Origin: Candidatus Zixiibacteriota bacterium
Lineage (GTDB): Bacteria; SM23-81
Length of the DNA: 6,308 nt
NCBI GenBank assembly: GCA_030628225.1
Contig: DAOVRJ010000149.1
Location: 1-6,308 of the forward strand
Direction of reading: 5' to 3'
Each line of letters begins with the position of its first letter. Within the stretch, counting starts at the first letter, position 1. This document shows, one piece after another, positions 188 to 6,308 of this stretch. Both the position numbers and the translations under genes were made by a program. The notes beneath the pieces are model-generated. The model saw only the letters and a program-made list of their open reading frames with translations, was not told where the DNA came from and did no database searches.

Positions 188-227
188 AAAAAAAGAGCTT
201 ATCGTTGTTTTACCAGCAATGAGAACC

Positions 228-308
228 GGGACCCGGGGATCGGGAAAAGAAAAAAACAGAACCGTGGTCTTGAGCATTACGGATCCCGGATCCCGAGCCC
301 CGGACCCC
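228..308. repeat. Inverted heptad pair, potential hairpin (upstream region)
   Basis: The 18 bases at 228-245 (ending ATCGGGA) can pair with the 18 bases at 291-308 (beginning TCCCGAG) at 15 of 18 positions. The spacer is 45 bp and purine-rich at its start. Both arms are built of degenerate 7-bp units: GAACCGG, GACCCGG, GGATCGG on the left and GAGCCCC, GGACCCC on the right. Transcribed in either direction it could form a GC-rich hairpin, but there is no following T-run, so it is not an intrinsic terminator. A similar arrangement occurs at 4649-4728. Confidence 0.55.
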
Positions 309-322
309 GAACTCTTCATCCC
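281..322. repeat. Degenerate 7-bp tandem repeat array A1
   Basis: Six contiguous units in unbroken 7-bp register: GGATCCC twice, then GAGCCCC, GGACCCC, GAACTCT and TCATCCC. The units drift in sequence while the spacing stays fixed. The array passes directly into the 9-bp array starting at 323. It is non-coding on any plausible reading, because a 7-bp period shifts frame at every unit. Confidence 0.8.
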
Positions 323-370
323 AACTCTCAAAACTCGCCTAACTCTCTAAACTCTCTGAACTCTCAAAAC
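323..370. repeat. 9-bp tandem repeat array (AACTCTCNN)n, upstream copy
   Basis: Five complete 9-bp units plus AAC: AACTCTCAA, AACTCGCCT, AACTCTCTA, AACTCTCTG, AACTCTCAA. The period is exact with no insertion or deletion. The same consensus, including the variant AACTCGC unit followed by AACTCTCTA, reappears in the same orientation at 4818-4853, so this is one repeat family and not independent low complexity. Confidence 0.85.
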
Positions 371-400
371 CATAATACAGAATCGGTTTTTCCTTTTAAC

Positions 401-449
401 GAGTCTCGAGTCTCGAATCTCGGCTCTTCATCCAGCATCCAGTATCCAT
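401..449. repeat. Degenerate 7-bp tandem repeat array A2
   Basis: Seven contiguous units in one register: GAGTCTC twice, GAATCTC, GGCTCTT, CATCCAG twice, TATCCAT. The unit type changes midway (GAGTCTC-like to CATCCAG-like) without any change in spacing. The CATCCAG/TATCCAG half matches array B2 at 4708-4728. The array ends 14 bp before the -35 element of the downstream gene, so it could affect that promoter, although nothing shows that it does. Confidence 0.8.
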
Positions 450-462
450 CCGACATTGTAAC

Positions 463-491
463 TTGCATTTTTCCCACCGCGGTGCTATATT
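463..491 (+). promoter_or_regulatory. Sigma-70-like promoter with extended -10
   Basis: A weak -35 candidate, TTGCAT (463-468), lies 17 bp upstream of TATATT (486-491), which matches the -10 consensus at five of six positions. A TG one base before the -10 (483-484) makes it an extended -10, which would compensate for the poor -35. Transcription would be expected to begin near 498, giving a leader of roughly 30 bases before the GTG start at 529. The assignment rests on sequence match and position only. Confidence 0.55.
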
Positions 492-517
492 TTCTTCGAA
501 AATCCAATCTTCTCTCC

Positions 518-522
518 GGGAG
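518..522 (+). promoter_or_regulatory. Ribosome binding site deciding the GTG start at 529
   Basis: GGGAG lies 6 bases upstream of a GTG codon (529-531) whose first 20 codons encode a textbook signal peptide. The longer open frame could be begun at a TTG at 463. That codon has no purine-rich site in front of it and falls inside the predicted promoter, so GTG 529 is preferred. Confidence 0.65.
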
Positions 523-528
523 ACGGCA

Positions 529-3156
529 GTGAAAACACTGTTAGCTTTTATCATCATACTTTTCACAGCCTCCGGGGCCGTGGCTCAGGAGGTGCCGGAC
601 AAGACCATCCGGCTGCACTATCGGGAAGAAACCAGCTTGCGCGGCGGATTTCTGTCCCACAAGGAGCTGGTCCGCCCAAGGGTGGGTCTGGCTCTGAGCG
701 GTGGAGGAGCGCGAGGTTTCGCTCACATAGGCGTTATCAAAGCCCTTGAGGAAGAGGGAATCCACTTAGATATGGTGGCCGGCACCAGCATGGGCTGTGT
801 CGTGGGGGGGCTCTACGCCGCCGGCAACTCGCCGGAGGATCTGCGGCGAATGTGCGCTGAGATCGACTGGAGCCGGATTTTTATCGATGACCCTTCCCGG
901 GCCAGTCTCTTATTAACACAGAAATGGGGCGAGCATAAAAGCCTTGTGCGGCTCAGGTTTGACGGTTGGCGGCTGAGCTTACCATCGGGCTTTACCTCGG
1001 CGCAGAAGTTATCCGACCTTCTGGCCGAACTGACCATGACGGCCAGCTATAGAGCGGAGGGGAACTTCGACAAACTGAACGTCCCCTTTCGAGCCGTGGT
1101 CACAGATATAGTCAGCGGCCAGAGCATAGCCATCGGAGAGGGAGATCTGGGAGAAGTGCTCAGGGCCGGGTTGGCCGTACCGCTTATTTTCACTCCGGTG
1201 GAAAAGGGCGATATGCTGCTTGCGGATGGCGGCCTATTGGATATCATCCCGGTGGATGTGGCCCGGGAAATGGGCGCCGATGTGGTGGTCGCCGTGAATG
1301 TAACCTCTCCCCTGTCTTCGCGGGAACAGTTGAAGAAGCCCTGGGCCCTGACCGAGCAGATCATCAATATCATGACGCGGGAGCCCATGCTGGCCAGCCT
1401 GGCCAGAGCTGATGTGATTATCACCCCTGATATGGGCAGCCACCTGTCCTATGACTACAGCCACATAGACGAGCTGATTCTCGCTGGCGAACAGGCGACC
1501 CTGGCGGCATTGGACGAGATCCGGGAGCGTATTGGGATGTGCCAAGAGACCCGGGGAGACACCACGACCTTTGTGGTCAGCTCCGTGGAAATTCAGGGAG
1601 AGGAGGACCTCTTTGCCCTGGCTCCCGCCGTGCCCATCCAGCCCGGCGACAGAGCCAGCGAGCGGAAGATTCGAGAGGTTCTGCGGGCGCTCTATGAGCG
1701 GGGCATCTATGAGGATGTATACGCCAGCGTGCGGATGGATGAGGGCGGTATGGGGATAACCTTTCATCTTGAAGAGATGCCAGTTTTCTCCGGCTACCAG
1801 ATCTCCGGAAATTTCCTTTTTTCAGATGAACAGCTTTTGAGAAATAGCAGCTTGAAGCCCGGGCAGGTTGTCGACCTTCAACAGGCCAACGAAGATCTGC
1901 AAGCGATGTTGGACAATTATCACTCCCCGGGATTTGCTCTGGCCCGCTTTAAACATGTAGAGTTTGAACAGCGGGCTGGCGTCATCCGCGGTGAAATCGA
2001 GGAAGGGGCTATCCAGGCCGTCAGGTATCTGGGTAATGAGAAAACCAAGTGCTGGGTTTTGTCCCGGGAGTTGACGATAAAGAAAGGGGACATCTTCAAT
2101 CTCCGGCGGGCAGGTCAGGGGATAGACAATATTTACGGCACCGGACTGTTCAAGAAGGTGGCCATGGAGATTCGGCCGGGAGAGAAGGGCGCCGTTCTGC
2201 TGATCAGGGTCAAGGAAAAGAAATCGATTTCCCTGGGTATGGGAGCTCGTTATGATCTGGAGAAGGACGGGGAGGGTTTTGTCGTTCTGGGAGATGAGAA
2301 TTTCCTGGGCGTGGGAAGCAAAATCGCCCTCTATACTCAGGGGGGAAGACGCAGGGAAAAGTATCAGGTGAGCCTGAAGGCCGATCGCATCTTCAAATCA
2401 TATTTGACCTTTGATTTCAAGGGGTTTGTCAGCAAAAGGGATTGGGCCGCATACTCCGGCGGCGATGAGATCGGTCGGTATGTGCTGGACAGGCGTGGTG
2501 GCCGATTGTTTTTGGGCCGGCACATAAGAAGATTCGGAATGGTGTCCGTGGAGGGGCGTGCTGAACACGTGAAATATATGTCCAAGTGGGGTGATGGCTA
2601 CCCCCACGGTACGAGAGAGATCCGCAGCCTCGTCCTCCGCTCTCTGATGGACACCATGGACCGGTTTCCATTTCCCACAAGGGGGAATATAATAAGTGGA
2701 TATATGGAGATCGGAACTCCATTTTTCGGAGGAACAGAAGAGTTCCGCAAGATCTTTGTCTCCCTGGAGTGCTATAACACCATCTGGTCCCGGCACACCT
2801 TTTTCGCCAGGGGATACCTGGGGTTGAGCGAGAGCCCGCTGCCTTTTTCGGAGCAGTTTCTGCTGGGGGGGGATCGGGAGCTGTTCGGTTACCGCGAGGG
2901 TGAGCTGCGGGGGAACAAACTTTTTCTGTTCAACTTGGGCTATCGAATGGAGCTGGTCAGAAGATTCTATTTTAGGACCCGCTACGATGTGGGCAACGTA
3001 TGGGAGAATGAGCTGCAGATAAAGTGGAAGACCACCAAACACGCCATCGGGGTCAGCCTGGCCTTGGACACCCCCCTGGGTCCCATCACGCTCACATATG
3101 GCCGGGCAAGCGAAGGACAGGAGCGGGTCTATTTCTCCGCGGGCTACCAGTTCTGA
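529..3156 (+). CDS. Patatin-like phospholipase fused to POTRA domains and Omp85 outer-membrane barrel
   Basis: This 875-residue protein resembles type Vd secretion proteins (PlpD-like patatin autotransporters). It begins with a signal peptide (residues 1-19, hydrophobic core LLAFIIILF, cleavage after AVA). The patatin domain (about 50-335) has the oxyanion-loop GGGARG (58-63), the nucleophile elbow GTSMG with Ser87, and the dyad aspartate Asp233 in DGG, so a lipid acyl hydrolase should be active. Three POTRA-like segments follow at about 348-417, 419-490 and 495-564. A barrel of about 310 residues (566-875) ends in the outer-membrane signal RVYFSAGYQF with C-terminal Phe. PlpD has a single POTRA and about 730 residues, so this one is longer. 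The loop-6 motif reads LFGY (785-788) where Omp85 proteins usually have (V/I)RG(F/Y). Family knowledge suggests the barrel anchors or exports the lipase domain to the surface; whether it is released is unknown. It has its own promoter and terminator and is convergent with hflX. Family call is secure, substrate unknown. Confidence 0.93.
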   Translation: MKTLLAFIIILFTASGAVAQEVPDKTIRLHYREETSLRGGFLSHKELVRPRVGLALSGGGARGFAHIGVIKALEEEGIHLDMVAGTSMGCVVGGLYAAGNSPEDLRRMCAEIDWSRIFIDDPSRASLLLTQKWGEHKSLVRLRFDGWRLSLPSGFTSAQKLSDLLAELTMTASYRAEGNFDKLNVPFRAVVTDIVSGQSIAIGEGDLGEVLRAGLAVPLIFTPVEKGDMLLADGGLLDIIPVDVAREMGADVVVAVNVTSPLSSREQLKKPWALTEQIINIMTREPMLASLARADVIITPDMGSHLSYDYSHIDELILAGEQATLAALDEIRERIGMCQETRGDTTTFVVSSVEIQGEEDLFALAPAVPIQPGDRASERKIREVLRALYERGIYEDVYASVRMDEGGMGITFHLEEMPVFSGYQISGNFLFSDEQLLRNSSLKPGQVVDLQQANEDLQAMLDNYHSPGFALARFKHVEFEQRAGVIRGEIEEGAIQAVRYLGNEKTKCWVLSRELTIKKGDIFNLRRAGQGIDNIYGTGLFKKVAMEIRPGEKGAVLLIRVKEKKSISLGMGARYDLEKDGEGFVVLGDENFLGVGSKIALYTQGGRRREKYQVSLKADRIFKSYLTFDFKGFVSKRDWAAYSGGDEIGRYVLDRRGGRLFLGRHIRRFGMVSVEGRAEHVKYMSKWGDGYPHGTREIRSLVLRSLMDTMDRFPFPTRGNIISGYMEIGTPFFGGTEEFRKIFVSLECYNTIWSRHTFFARGYLGLSESPLPFSEQFLLGGDRELFGYREGELRGNKLFLFNLGYRMELVRRFYFRTRYDVGNVWENELQIKWKTTKHAIGVSLALDTPLGPITLTYGRASEGQERVYFSAGYQF

Positions 3157-3182
3157 TCTTCAGGTGAGAGAGGTGTGTTAAA

Positions 3183-3200
3183 GTCGTTATGGTCGTTATC
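3183..3200. repeat. 9-bp tandem duplication
   Basis: GTCGTTATG is followed immediately by GTCGTTATC, two 9-bp units differing at the last base. It lies between the stop codon of the phospholipase gene and its terminator. It shares the 9-bp period of the AACTCTC arrays but not their sequence. Confidence 0.6.
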
Positions 3201-3235
3201 GCCTCCGTAAGCCGGTGTGTTGCGCAATTAACCAG

Positions 3236-3259
3236 ACCCGTCATCACGGCGGGTTTTTT
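3236..3259 (+). terminator. Rho-independent terminator of the patatin gene
   Basis: ACCCGTC (3236-3242) pairs with GGCGGGT (3248-3254), giving seven pairs including one G-T wobble and a 5-base loop (ATCAC). A run of six T follows (3254-3259). It begins 80 bp after the stop codon at 3154-3156. There is no A-run on the left side, so the structure should terminate plus-strand transcription only and not hflX transcription from the other side. Confidence 0.85.
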
Positions 3260-3292
3260 GCCCCTTTGAGGGCTGAACCCCGCAGTGGAACC

Positions 3293-4588
3293 TCATTTTT
3301 CGTTAGAATCCGGTGATGGATGCGCGGAGAGTTTTTTTTGCAGACGCTGGGCGTCCTCTCGTCTCAGCTTCACGCGCAGCGAGATCTCTGTGGGGTGGTC
3401 CCGTCTTTCCAGGACCTCGCCGGTGGAGTAAATCTGAGAGAGAAGCTTGGGATTTGAGAGAGGCAGGTGCAGGATTAGCTCGATCATCTGCTGATCGAAG
3501 TGTCGGAGAAGCTCCTCAGCTAACTGCTCCATACCCTCTTCGCGAAGCGCGGAGATGAAAACGGCACGAGGATATTCCCGGCGCACCCGGGCCATCAGCT
3601 CGGGGAAACGGGCCACTTTGTCGATCTTGTTGAAAACCAGCATGAGTGGGCGGGTGTGAGCGCCCAGCTCCACTAAAACGCCGGACACCGCCTTCATCTG
3701 TTCCTCGAACTTCTCGTGGCTGATGTCGATGATGTGCAGGAGCAGATCTGTCACCACCAGTTCATCCAGGGTGCTGTGGAAGCTGGCGATGAGATGATGG
3801 GGTAGCTTCCGGATCAGGCCGACGGTGTCGGTGATCAAGATCTTTTTTCCGCCATTCAGCTGGACGGCCCGGGTTGTGGGATCGAGAGTGGCGAACAGCT
3901 TGTCCTCGGTGTAGATGTCCGCTCGGGAGAGAGCGTTGAGAAGAGTAGACTTACCCGTATTAGTGTAGCCCACCAATGCCGCGGTGAACTCGCGCCGTCT
4001 TTTTTCCCTGCGCACATCTCGCCGCTTAGCGATGCGCTTCAGGGTTGTGGAGAGATCGGCAATGCGCTTTCTTACCCGCCGCCGGTCCACCTCTAACTGG
4101 GTCTCACCGGGACCGCGAGTGCCGATGCCGCCCTCCTGCCGGGACAGGTGGGTCCACTGACGGGTCAGGCGAGGCAGCAGGTACTGCAACTGGGCCAGCT
4201 CCACCTGTGTCTTGGCCTCTCGGGTTTTGGCCCGCCGAGCGAAGATGTCCAGGATCAGGCCGCTGCGATCGATGATTTTGGCGTCGATGGCTCGCTCGAG
4301 ATTCCGGGCCTGAGCCGGGGTCAGATCGTCATCGAAGACGACCAGGTTGGCTTTTAGCTCGCTGACCCGCCGGGCCACCTGTTCGACCTTGCCCTCCCCG
4401 ATAAAGATGGCTGGATCAGGCTGGGTTCGCGCCTGGATTATCGTCTCTAACACGTCGGCACCGGCCGTGTTGACTAGTAGAGCCAGCTCTTCCAGACTGT
4501 CCTCTGGAGGCCAGCCATCGCTGTGCGGTAGCTTCACGGCCACCAGGATGGCTTTTTCGCGAGCGTTGTTGGGTTGGGTTTCGTACAT
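3293..4588 (-). CDS. hflX: GTPase HflX, ribosome-splitting factor
   Basis: HflX is a TRAFAC-class GTPase that binds the 50S subunit and splits stalled or hibernating ribosomes, for example after heat or antibiotic stress. The 431-residue protein carries the full family layout. The N-terminal HflX domain spans about 15-110 (IFIGEGKVE at 61-69). The middle helical domain has ARRAKTREAKTQVELAQLQYLLPRL (in part 117-141) and the hallmark GGIGTRGPGETQLE (153-166). The G domain has P-loop GYTNTGKS (207-214), switch I near LFATLDPTTR (231-240), DTVG (254-257), NKID (320-323) and SA (346-347). A short C-terminal domain follows at about 365-420. Length is normal for the family and no key residue is missing. 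The ATG start is supported by AAGGA six bases upstream. It lies downstream of, and on the same strand as, an ABC-F gene 252 bp away, another ribosome-acting ATPase. An A8 run (minus strand) sits near the 3' end at 3332-3339. Confidence 0.97.
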   Translation of the reverse strand: MYETQPNNAREKAILVAVKLPHSDGWPPEDSLEELALLVNTAGADVLETIIQARTQPDPAIFIGEGKVEQVARRVSELKANLVVFDDDLTPAQARNLERAIDAKIIDRSGLILDIFARRAKTREAKTQVELAQLQYLLPRLTRQWTHLSRQEGGIGTRGPGETQLEVDRRRVRKRIADLSTTLKRIAKRRDVRREKRRREFTAALVGYTNTGKSTLLNALSRADIYTEDKLFATLDPTTRAVQLNGGKKILITDTVGLIRKLPHHLIASFHSTLDELVVTDLLLHIIDISHEKFEEQMKAVSGVLVELGAHTRPLMLVFNKIDKVARFPELMARVRREYPRAVFISALREEGMEQLAEELLRHFDQQMIELILHLPLSNPKLLSQIYSTGEVLERRDHPTEISLRVKLRREDAQRLQKKLSAHPSPDSNEK

Positions 4589-4594
4589 GAAAGG

Positions 4595-4599
4595 TCCTT
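4595..4599 (-). promoter_or_regulatory. Ribosome binding site of hflX
   Basis: On the minus strand AAGGA lies six bases upstream of the ATG at 4588-4586. This is close to the ideal Shine-Dalgarno sequence and spacing, and it fixes the hflX start. Confidence 0.8.
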
Positions 4600-4636
4600 A
4601 AACTAACTCGAATGTCGTTTGTCGGTATCGAAATTT

Positions 4637-4647
4637 GAAAAACCGAT
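4637..4647. repeat. 11-bp block shared with upstream region (opposite orientation)
   Basis: GAAAAACCGAT at 4637-4647 is the exact reverse complement of 382-392 (ATCGGTTTTTC). In both places the block abuts CTG-containing 7-bp-like units (GATCCTG here; GATTCTG read on the minus strand at the other site). This suggests it belongs to the same modular repeat family. Confidence 0.5.
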
Positions 4648-4672
4648 CCTGGATACTTGATTCTGGATCCTG
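4645..4672. repeat. Degenerate 7-bp tandem repeat array B1
   Basis: Four contiguous units: GATCCTG, GATACTT, GATTCTG, GATCCTG. It lies about 60-85 bp upstream of the hflX start codon. It is the inverted counterpart of array B2 (TATCCAG units) 36 bp further along. Confidence 0.8.
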
Positions 4673-4728
4673 GAAAACAACAACCCCCAGCGGAAATTAT
4701 CTTTTTCTATCCAGTATCCAGCATCCAG
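4649..4728. repeat. Inverted heptad pair, potential hairpin (hflX upstream)
   Basis: The 20 bases at 4649-4668 can pair with the 20 bases at 4709-4728 at 17 positions, across a 40-bp spacer. Each arm is about three 7-bp units. It lies between the ABC-F stop and the hflX start. If read through from the ABC-F gene it could fold in the messenger RNA ahead of hflX. There is no T-run next to an arm that would make it a convincing intrinsic terminator. The layout parallels the inverted pair at 228-308. Confidence 0.6.
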
Positions 4729-4735
4729 TTCCTTC
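4708..4735. repeat. Degenerate 7-bp tandem repeat array B2
   Basis: TATCCAG twice, CATCCAG, then a decayed unit TTCCTTC, all in one 7-bp register. The same units occur in array A2 (CATCCAG twice, TATCCAT at 429-449) in the same orientation. Confidence 0.8.
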
Positions 4736-4780
4736 ACAATCACGTGTCCATCTCTACCTTATTGTACAACAGTCTGTTTT

Positions 4781-4815
4781 CTCCGAGCTCCGAGTTCCGA
4801 ACTCTTTCATCTCTC
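4781..4815. repeat. Degenerate 7-bp tandem repeat array B3
   Basis: CTCCGAG twice, TTCCGAA, CTCTTTC, ATCTCTC. It contains a perfect 6+1+6 dyad, GAGTTC-C-GAACTC, at 4792-4804. After two more bases it leads into the 9-bp array at 4818, in the same order as A1 followed by the 9-bp array in the upstream region. Confidence 0.75.
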
Positions 4816-4817
4816 TC

Positions 4818-4853
4818 AACTCGCATAACTCTCTAAACTCTCAAAACTCTTCA
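4818..4853. repeat. 9-bp tandem repeat array (AACTCTCNN)n, overlapping the ABC-F 3' end
   Basis: Four units: AACTCGCAT, AACTCTCTA, AACTCTCAA, AACTCTTCA. The first three correspond in order to units of the array at 323-370. The TGA stop of the ABC-F gene (4843-4841 on the minus strand) lies inside the third unit, and the last codons (Glu-Glu-Phe) lie in the fourth. The repeat therefore forms the end of the reading frame. Confidence 0.85.
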
Positions 4854-6308
4854 GACTTTTCCACTAAGGCTTCCGACATCTCCATCCATTTAGCCAGCAG
4901 AGCTTCCAGCCGGTCAGCGAGATCCTGGCGCTGTTCGTGGAGGCTCTTTAACGCCTGCCAGTCTGTGCTCAACTCGGAATTTTGCAGTAGTTTATCGACA
5001 TCTGCCAGTTCATCCTCTAAATAGGCGATCTCAGCCTCGAGAGATGCCAGTTTTTTTTTGGAAAACCCGCCGCCTTTGAAGACGTTATGGCTGGCAGCCT
5101 TTTTGCGCGCCTTCTTTTTTCTGCTCAGGGCATCTTGCCGTGCCCTTTTCTGGCGATAAGAGCTGTAGTTACCAAGGTACTCCTGGATCTGTCCGTTTTC
5201 CAGGTGCAGGATGCGCCGGGCTATCTTATCCAAGAAGTAGCGATCGTGAGAGACCAGCAGAATGGTGCCGTCATATGCGGACAGGACCTTCTCCAGAGCA
5301 TCCCGGGCGGAGATATCCAGGTGGTTGGTGGGTTCATCTAACAGCAGCAGGTTAGCCTCAGCCAGCATCAGCTTGGCCAGGGCCACCCGGCTCTGCTCGC
5401 CGCCGCTGAGGCTGCCCACCGGCCGGAAGATCTCCTCACCAGTGAAGAGAAACCGGGCCAGATAGCTGCGCAGGTCCGGTTCCAGCATTTCGGGGCGCGA
5501 CCTCCAGACTTCCTCCAGGATGGTGCAAGAGCGGTCCAGGCCCGCCAAGTCCTGTTCGTAGTACCCGATCTGGACATTGTGACCTGTTTGGTAACTGCCG
5601 GCATCCGGGTTCTCTTGGCCGGCGGCGATCTTCAACAGGGTGCTCTTGCCGGTGCCGTTGGGTCCCAGCAGGGCCACGCGCTCCCCGCGGTATACCGCCA
5701 GGCTGAGGTTCCGGAACAGGAGTTGTCGCCCATAGCTTTTGGTCACGTCCTTATATGAGAGAACCACGCGGCCCTCACGGCCGGAGGAACGCAGAACGGG
5801 CCTCATCTGATTTTGCTGTGAGGTTGGCGCAGCGATTCGCTCCATCTTCTGCAATGTCTTCCGGCGGCTTTGGGCCTGCTTGGTTTTCTGGCCGGCGATG
5901 TTCCGGCGGATAAAATCCTCGGTGCGGCGGATTTCCTCCTGCTGAAGCTGGTATTGTTTCAGCTGCTTGAGCTGGCGGTCTTCCTTTTGCTCAAGGTAGG
6001 CCGTGTAGTTTCCTGCATAAAACTGCAGGCGTCCGCCCTCCAGTTCGGCGATGGTCTCTACCGCCCGGTCCAGGAGATAGCGGTCGTGGGAGACCACGAT
6101 GACCGTGCCGGAAAACTCCATGAGGAAACGTTCCAGCCACCGGGTGGCCTCGATATCCAGATGGTTGGTGGGCTCGTCTAACAGGAGGAGCTGGGGCTTG
6201 GAGAGCAGAACCTGGGCCAGAGCGGCGATGTTCTTTTGCCCCCCGCTGAGCACGCTGGCTTTCTTGGATAGATCCGCCTGTGTGAAGCCCAGGCCGAAGA
6301 GGGTGCTC
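4841..6308 (-). CDS. ABC-F family ATPase, 5' end outside the window (partial)
   Basis: ABC-F proteins are soluble tandem-ATPase factors that bind the ribosomal E site and relieve stalled or drug-bound ribosomes; they are not transporters. The frame is open through the right edge, so 488 C-terminal residues are visible. The internal GTG at 6253 is within the first signature motif and is not a start. Visible order, counting from the edge: first signature LSGGQ (20-24), Walker B with catalytic Glu in DEPTNHLD (44-51), SHDR switch (73-76), a basic helical linker at about 98-160 (the P-site-tRNA-interaction region), second Walker A GPNGTGKST (215-223), LSGGE (300-304), DEPTNHLD (324-331), SHDR (353-356), then a charged coiled-coil C-terminal domain (about 390-488) as in Uup/YdiF-type members. 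The first Walker A and roughly 130 residues are missing. All visible ATPase motifs are intact. The exact subfamily (Uup, YheS, YdiF) cannot be fixed. An A9 run encodes KKK at 5051-5059, and the last three codons and stop lie in a 9-bp repeat array. Confidence 0.95.
   Translation of the reverse strand, partial: STLFGLGFTQADLSKKASVLSGGQKNIAALAQVLLSKPQLLLLDEPTNHLDIEATRWLERFLMEFSGTVIVVSHDRYLLDRAVETIAELEGGRLQFYAGNYTAYLEQKEDRQLKQLKQYQLQQEEIRRTEDFIRRNIAGQKTKQAQSRRKTLQKMERIAAPTSQQNQMRPVLRSSGREGRVVLSYKDVTKSYGRQLLFRNLSLAVYRGERVALLGPNGTGKSTLLKIAAGQENPDAGSYQTGHNVQIGYYEQDLAGLDRSCTILEEVWRSRPEMLEPDLRSYLARFLFTGEEIFRPVGSLSGGEQSRVALAKLMLAEANLLLLDEPTNHLDISARDALEKVLSAYDGTILLVSHDRYFLDKIARRILHLENGQIQEYLGNYSSYRQKRARQDALSRKKKARKKAASHNVFKGGGFSKKKLASLEAEIAYLEDELADVDKLLQNSELSTDWQALKSLHEQRQDLADRLEALLAKWMEMSEALVEKSEEF

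Follow-up and report, generated by a model that had tools for sequence, protein, structure and literature searches.

Heptamer and nonamer arrays within dispersed modules in intergenic regions of a Candidatus Zixiibacteriota genome

The two larger intergenic regions of a 6,308-nucleotide stretch of DNA from a Candidatus Zixiibacteriota bacterium (assembly GCA_030628225.1, contig DAOVRJ010000149.1, hereafter the window) contain degenerate repeats with periods of 7 and 9 bp, raising the question of what kind of element they form and by which process they reached these sites. The window is contig C67 of the source genome (G000), a fragmented draft of 2.34 Mb in 306 contigs, and contains three genes assigned through Pfam:

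535 to 3156, plus strand: gene for a patatin-POTRA-Omp85 protein, start not fixed
3293 to 4588, minus strand: gene for an HflX GTPase, with an ortholog 78% identical in G001
4841 to 6307, minus strand: gene for an ABC-F-like ATPase, 5' end incomplete

The comparison within the phylum covered the source genome and three others (G001, G002 and G003), G001 being of the same family and of another genus. Compared with Caldithrix, Latescibacterota, KSB1 and similar genomes, the HflX of the source genome reaches no more than 57% identity, and an FCB-type assignment of this genome is plausible.

Periodicity in the window and in the source genome

Measured against dinucleotide shuffles, the lag-7 autocorrelation reached z = 8.9 at 223-449 and z = 5.2 at 4645-4853, and the signal was absent in the three coding regions of the window (z = -1.6 to -2.4). 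The 7-bp arrays located by TRF and lag scans lie at 280-312, 400-422, 429-448, 4645-4674, 4708-4729 and 4781-4804; those with 9-bp units lie at 323-370 and 4802-4850. Over whole regions, lag-9 autocorrelation gave z values of only 1.4-1.8 because the nonamer blocks are short, and the 9-bp unit consists of a 7-base word plus two near-free bases; the strict 9-bp period described in a previous sequence-only reading of this DNA is kept in short arrays and not across the regions. That reading had the two regions tiled by arrays from end to end; the periodicity was confirmed, and the tiling was not, given four non-periodic linkers at about 246-279, 371-399, 4675-4707 and 4729-4780. The switching of unit types in register was found inside blocks, as from GGATCCC to GAGCCCC and GGACCCC at 280-312, and is lost between blocks, where the offsets are 29 bases (400 to 429) and 73 bases (4708 to 4781). 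The palindromes GGATCC and CTCGAG, ascribed before to many heptads, do exist, each for just one value of the free base, and the main palindromic feature is the pairing of whole arrays and not the palindromes enclosed in units.

An unbiased sample of the source genome was made of 40 contigs chosen by number (314 kb without N), and the all-N contigs C7, C22, C207 and C208 (loci L137, L150, L157 and L158) were excluded from the statistics. The lag-7 excess predicted for intergenic regions over coding and shuffled sequence was found here also, with 29 arrays between genes, 3 in coding sequence and 0.3 in shuffles. In the same sample, lags of 5, 6 and 10 gave no intergenic segment and lag 8 gave three, and lag-14 segments were also present, a sign of larger copying units. 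Word counts extended this to the whole genome: the nonamer AACTCTCNNAACTCTC occurs 122 times, versus 3 for its reversed control, and ATCCAGNATCCAGNATCCAG 55 times, versus none. In the same-family genome G001, AACTCTCNNAACTCTC was found 29 times (control, 1), and it was found in none of 58 other genomes. Arrays are enriched near contig ends (17 of 33, versus the 26% expected from intergenic bases), as expected for repeats that break assembly.

Modules and their dispersed copies

The arrays of the window belong to four modules, which are listed here with the arrays that they include:

226 to 311, no strand assigned: module A, a dispersed hairpin element with GGGANCC-type heptad arms at about 227-245 and 280-311 and the loop AAAAGAAAAAAACAGAACCGTGGTCTTGAGCATTACG
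280 to 312, plus strand: 7-bp array GGATCCC/GAGCCCC/GGACCCC, the 3' arm of module A (lag-7 segment, TRF)
319 to 449, plus strand: module B, with a nonamer array, the linker GGTTTTTCCTTTTAA, TCTCGAN heptads and CATCCAG heptads
323 to 370, plus strand: 9-bp array AACTCTCNN of module B (TRF, 5.3 copies)
400 to 422, plus strand: 7-bp array CGAGTCT (TCTCGAN; TRF, lag-7 segment)
429 to 448, plus strand: 7-bp array CATCCAG (ATCCAGN; TRF, lag-7 segment)
4608 to 4728, no strand assigned: module C, dispersed, with a left piece TCGAATGTCGTTTGTCGGTATCGAAATTTGAAAAACC followed by a hairpin made of a CTGGATN 5' arm, a loop at 4675-4707 and an ATCCAGN 3' arm
4645 to 4674, minus strand: 7-bp array GGATCCTGGATACTTGATTCTGG, the 5' arm of module C (lag-7 segment)
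4708 to 4729, plus strand: 7-bp array ATCCAGTATCCAGCATCCAG, the 3' arm of module C (TRF)
4781 to 4850, plus strand: module D, CTCCGAG heptads (4781-4804) joined to a AACTCTCNN nonamer array (to about 4850)

When 237 intergenic regions were compared with one another, most of 226-449 and 4608-4840 was found to resemble intergenic DNA elsewhere, in stretches of 60-131 bp with around 74-92% identity, non-repetitive parts included. Module A is 84% identical over 86 bp to locus L043, and partial copies were found in L043 and L044. Module B is dispersed as a single unit of variable length (82% over 131 bp to L033, 80% over 116 bp to L044), and its copy in the window and ten others align through the linker GGATCGGTTTTTTCTTTTAACGA, whose 12-mer core GGATCGGTTTTT was found 21 times genome-wide and its reversed control not once. 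Module C is 85% identical over 122 bp to L036 and has 53 matches in the genome, mostly to its word part, and module D is 83-86% identical over 59-60 bp to L043 and L037. In the unbiased sample, 11.5% of the intergenic bases match another intergenic region, versus none after shuffling.

The surroundings of about 40 nonamer arrays were read, and recurring linkers were found around them. This recurrence of modules with their linkers points to arrays as components of dispersed mosaic elements, and not to each array having arisen alone. In addition, a degenerate and irregular 24-mer of the TCTCGA type, TCGAATTTCGAATCTCGAGTCTCG, is present at seven places on different contigs, supporting that the irregular order of units was copied and not re-made. 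The proposal of a genome-wide dispersed modular family is thus borne out, the same words and modules recurring in intergenic DNA across the genome, and so is its distinction from a plain microsatellite. Each element is built of modules in which a fixed word of 5-7 bases, together with one or two freer positions, is reiterated at a period of 7 or 9 and accompanied by conserved linkers or loops. A higher-order repeat of 36 bp, formed by four nonamer units (CCT, CTG, AAA and CTC types), was found in L049 at about 4500-4620 (minus strand position 13901) and is a sign of block duplication inside the array.

Another dispersed element, CCTGTCATGCCTGCGTATGCAGGCATCTCCGAAAGCAG...GGAGATTCCGGCATTCGCCGGAATGACAAAAGAGAGGTTCTC, often lies immediately 5' of a nonamer array (L033, L035, L038, L041 and L047).

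Inverted pairing, free bases and gene context

A feature overlooked in the sequence-only reading is that about a third of the arrays have an inverted partner array, with which they form a long imperfect hairpin. In a word-free scan, a partner within 220 bp was found for 11 of 32 unbiased arrays and 27 of 77 selected ones, when around 1% was expected, the majority of arrays having no partner in that reach. The purine-rich arm was 5' in 35 of the 38 inverted pairs (38 of 109 arrays paired), a polarity that holds across the five word families that yielded pairs, and in 20 of 20 pairs from a word-level scan the purine array comes first, followed by the loop and the pyrimidine array. Copying probably relates the pairs of one word family to each other, and they therefore do not count as independent events. 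Arms match their own partner better than the arms of other copies (P 0.007 and 0.017), a comparison confounded by arm length. Elsewhere in the genome, TCCG, ATCCAG and AACTCTC words form long stems round conserved loops of about 35-50 bases.

In the window, modules A and C are hairpins with heptad-array arms of opposite sense, and their RNA folds lie 2.2 to 3.0 SD below those of shuffles, a modest difference (z -2.2 to -3.0). For module A the folds were -38.7 and -44.4 kcal/mol (z -2.5 and -2.8), and for the minus strand of module C the fold was -41 kcal/mol (z -3.0); modules B and D folded no better than shuffles. Searches against Rfam at the gathering score returned only tRNAs, in five sources, and none in the window. 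A nonamer hairpin was seen between two tRNA genes within a tRNA cluster (L036, 4259-4418).

The distribution of variation inside units was also analyzed. Among units adjoining an exact core, which were pre-selected for similarity to it, ATCCAGN is open at its last base (56/53/38/34), and in the nonamer AACTCTCNN, also from units pre-selected for core similarity, AACT is 96-99% conserved, position 9 is open and position 8 is nearly devoid of G (1 of 175). A first null for the concentration of mismatches, based on random placement, gave z values of 21-24, but sequences simulated under neutral slippage reached high scores with this null too. With matched nulls the variation of the source genome was still restricted to certain positions (z 6.2 for k7 and 9.0 for k9), and a copy-robust statistic gave z 7.1 for the nonamer and 2.7 for the heptads, beyond the neutral simulation. 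Position-restricted variation is therefore supported in the nonamer and only suggested in the heptads. The IMG/VR arrays showed none with the same matched nulls and copy-robust statistic, and phase-restricted variation was discarded as a general law, given these arrays and the inflation of the first z by neutral drift. Neighbouring ATCCAGN units carry equal free bases in 9 of 55 cases genome-wide, when 15.2 were expected (permutation P 0.035); a total avoidance of equal neighbours, seen as 0 of 21 in a first sample, was rejected with these larger numbers, the effect being weak.

Regarding gene context, spacers of at least 80 bp carry arrays, on either strand, in 16% of the divergent, 18% of the tandem and 24% of the convergent cases, with neither a preference for a spacer type nor a strand bias; a gene-orientation bias was rejected. 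No gene-regulatory placement of the arrays was found, and the earlier guess of a protein-binding array is left unsupported by these numbers as far as gene regulation is concerned.

The orthologous sites of the window were also compared in G001. Patatin-Omp85 and HflX are neighbours there, as in the window, with identities of 68% and 78%, and neither of the spacers of G001 that correspond to those of the window has such arrays. In this comparison of syntenic intergenic regions the arrays were not shared, a result that rests mainly on the window itself, with only four shared spacers in the samples. The ABC-F protein ends in SEALM in G001 and in SEALVEKSEEF in the window, six residues longer, and its extra residues and stop codon fall at or in the last nonamer unit of module D, this stop lying inside the array only in the genome of the window. 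Six further genes with their stop codon inside an array were detected in a 0.5 Mb sample. The absence in G001 and the position of this stop fit a gain or loss of arrays where genes end and do not prove the direction.

Known relatives and origin of the arrays

The sequence-only reading knew of no named family that fits these tracts and overlooked the heterogeneous heptamers in convergent pairs already published for Xanthomonas, GGGANTN, which are their closest published relative (PMC4692102). The Xanthomonas repeats, GGGAATC or (GGGANTN)n, are 7-bp units with some positions fixed and some open, dispersed and about 90% intergenic; in 70-75 cases they are paired convergently, they vary between related species, and the authors found neither a function nor a functional class among the neighbouring genes (PMC4692102). 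The tracts studied here resemble them in their heterogeneous 7-bp units, mostly intergenic position and inverted convergent pairs, whereas in Xanthomonas there is one G-rich word able to form quadruplexes and here no fewer than six words occur besides a 9-bp unit, several of them not G-rich, and conserved linkers join them into mosaic modules. Like the heptameric simple-sequence repeats of bacteria of Mrazek or Xanthomonas type in general, the tracts show a tandem 7-bp excess between genes and fixed and open positions, to which the convergent inverted pairs known from Xanthomonas are added. GGGANTC repeated three times was found in none of 241 genomes, G000 included. This likeness in pairing and polarity and not in the word suggests that a process is shared rather than an ancestor.

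Other heptamers are more distant. The TAACTGA direct repeats of Beggiatoaceae, Cyanobacteria and Bacteroidetes are a single exact word found mostly just upstream of start codons (PMC4679880). With the present tracts they have in common that 7-bp units are directly repeated in small arrays, abundantly and between genes, whereas here there are many degenerate words with no preference for starts. Nostoc has GGGGA(C/T)T heptamer repeats, and STRR heptamers are also mentioned (PMC4692102). The STRR heptamers, which occur in Calothrix and other cyanobacteria, resemble our arrays as non-coding 7-bp units in tandem; they are described as direct repeats of fixed words and are not known to have module linkers or inverted pairs. 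With REP and BIME sequences the tracts share dispersed intergenic palindromes combined with short modules as mosaics. REPs are 20-40 bp long and have a GTAG or CGTC tag (PMC3733652), whereas each arm here is an array of heptads or nonads, 20-85 bases long, and no such tag was seen when the sequence at the foot of the module A and C hairpins (about 80-90 bp) was read.

We consider it probable that the tracts are dispersed non-coding mosaic palindromic repeats of REP/BIME type with heptamer arms, spread by the copying of whole modules. The recurrence of modules with their linkers, the single polarity of the inverted pairs that some arrays form and the absence at the orthologous spacers of the nearest genome are the observations behind this. 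Whole modules would be copied into new intergenic sites, where they could gain or lose units by slippage, unequal exchange or duplications of 14 and 36 bp, and the words common to several modules would let them join as mosaics. Such an element would probably be selfish or neutral, and by analogy with REP sequences its hairpin might have an effect at gene ends, on RNA stability or termination. Among the three origins proposed from the letters alone, a decayed mobile element comes nearest, since what is dispersed is whole modules together with their conserved linkers. As regards MITEs, which have terminal inverted repeats and target-site duplications, inverted arms are present here, and no empty site with a target duplication was shown, the nearest genome being of another genus.

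Arrays could instead be ordinary heptamer simple-sequence repeats, arising in place through polymerase slippage that favours 7-bp units and decaying by point mutation. The over-representation of heptamers and the slippage hypothesis are published (PMC4692102, citing Mrazek 2007); perfect arrays of the same word exist in other genomes, such as repeated CTGGATA in G193:C53, and at the IMG/VR locus L296; and, with copying taken into account, the heterogeneity of the IMG/VR arrays agrees with neutral drift. Against this, conserved non-repeat linkers and loops accompany the arrays, identical irregular 24-mers lie at seven places, the inverted pairs have a fixed polarity, adjacent units do not copy each other's free bases and the variation of the nonamer is limited to certain positions (z 7.1). 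A purely slippage-driven origin, also among the earlier guesses, is weakened by the ATCCAGN neighbours and by the position restriction (nonamer z 7.1, heptads z 2.7), and we regard formation in place as unlikely. The restriction itself, with AACT conserved at 96-99%, position 9 open and G almost missing from position 8 (1 of 175) in units selected for core similarity, could be explained if a DNA- or RNA-binding protein read the fixed word and left the spacer bases free, regulating neighbours or organising the chromosome, and a post-transcriptional role was proposed for the TAACTGA heptamers of Beggiatoaceae (PMC4679880). The even distribution among divergent, tandem and convergent spacers (16, 18 and 24%), the lack of strand bias and the array-free orthologous spacers of G001 make such functional arrays improbable.

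Mobilization in trans was also considered, the tracts being then miniature relatives of an IS200/IS605-type (Y1, HUH) element whose transposase would recognise the hairpins and move them. Y1 transposases are encoded in the source genome, and one of them (G000:C221) is flanked on both sides by heptad arrays, outside its own terminal hairpins. This IS has the terminal hairpin CCCCCGCTCGTGAGCGGGGG, which is no heptad array, and its insertion within a heptad element or next to one is therefore more likely; flanking pairs are missing around the remaining Y1 genes, and no GTAG foot is visible on the hairpins of the window. Y1 transposases are present in all four genomes of the phylum, and G002 and G003 have them and none of the tested words, so they give no specific link to the arrays. 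We regard this origin as very improbable. The locus in question (L276, G000:C221:8242-8604 and flanks) has the IS200/IS605-type Y1 transposase between two copies of the CCCCCGCTCGTGAGCGGGGG hairpin, and the insertion seems to have taken place within or next to a hairpin element of heptads (TGAAAAATGCAAAGTGC ... CATTTTTCATTTTACACTTTTCAT). There is, finally, a slim chance that the lineage carries a class of element in which arms of fixed words and free spacers would be kept complementary and heterogeneous by an active process, either a word-reading protein or a templated copying enzyme, whose machinery would set the period at 7 or 9; if so, the widespread and unexplained bacterial heptamers would be its traces.

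A genome with this structure shifts the question from why polymerase slips by seven towards what copies these hairpins. The over-abundance of heptamer repeats in bacteria has been known since 2007, and no reason for it is generally accepted. What is found here is a richer form of that known puzzle of 7-base repeats in Xanthomonas and Nostoc, and not a new kind of system, and its several word families, 9-bp version, linkers and inverted pairs offer far more testable structure than the single-word cases.

The words were also searched in 241 genomes. CTGGATN three times over was found in nine, seven of them outside the family, versus two for the reversed control, and TCTCGAN was found in its own family only (2; control, 5); the sharing of words across phyla was rejected as proof of transfer, as these counts are too near the base rate. 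A viral origin was likewise rejected, the IMG/VR word matches being heptads of other words and homogeneous units with no phage link. Other genomes have their own intergenic words with periods of 7, 8 and 9, such as CTTTGTGC, AAACGGC, GATTACACA, CACAGAGGA, AATAACN and GTTCGCN (loci L234 and L243 of G193, L086, L294, L298, L307 and L312), some in inverted pairs, and the 9-bp ACACGGATA type looks common among them. At 17-50 and 153-195 the window also has another repeat in two inverted copies, GACGAAGCAATCTCGG ... CGAGATTGCTTCGCAGGGCTCGC, which flank the possible end of a short ORF, MNTPVAFMKYLNRELLLSY; GAGATTGCTTCG was found four times in the G001 sample as well.
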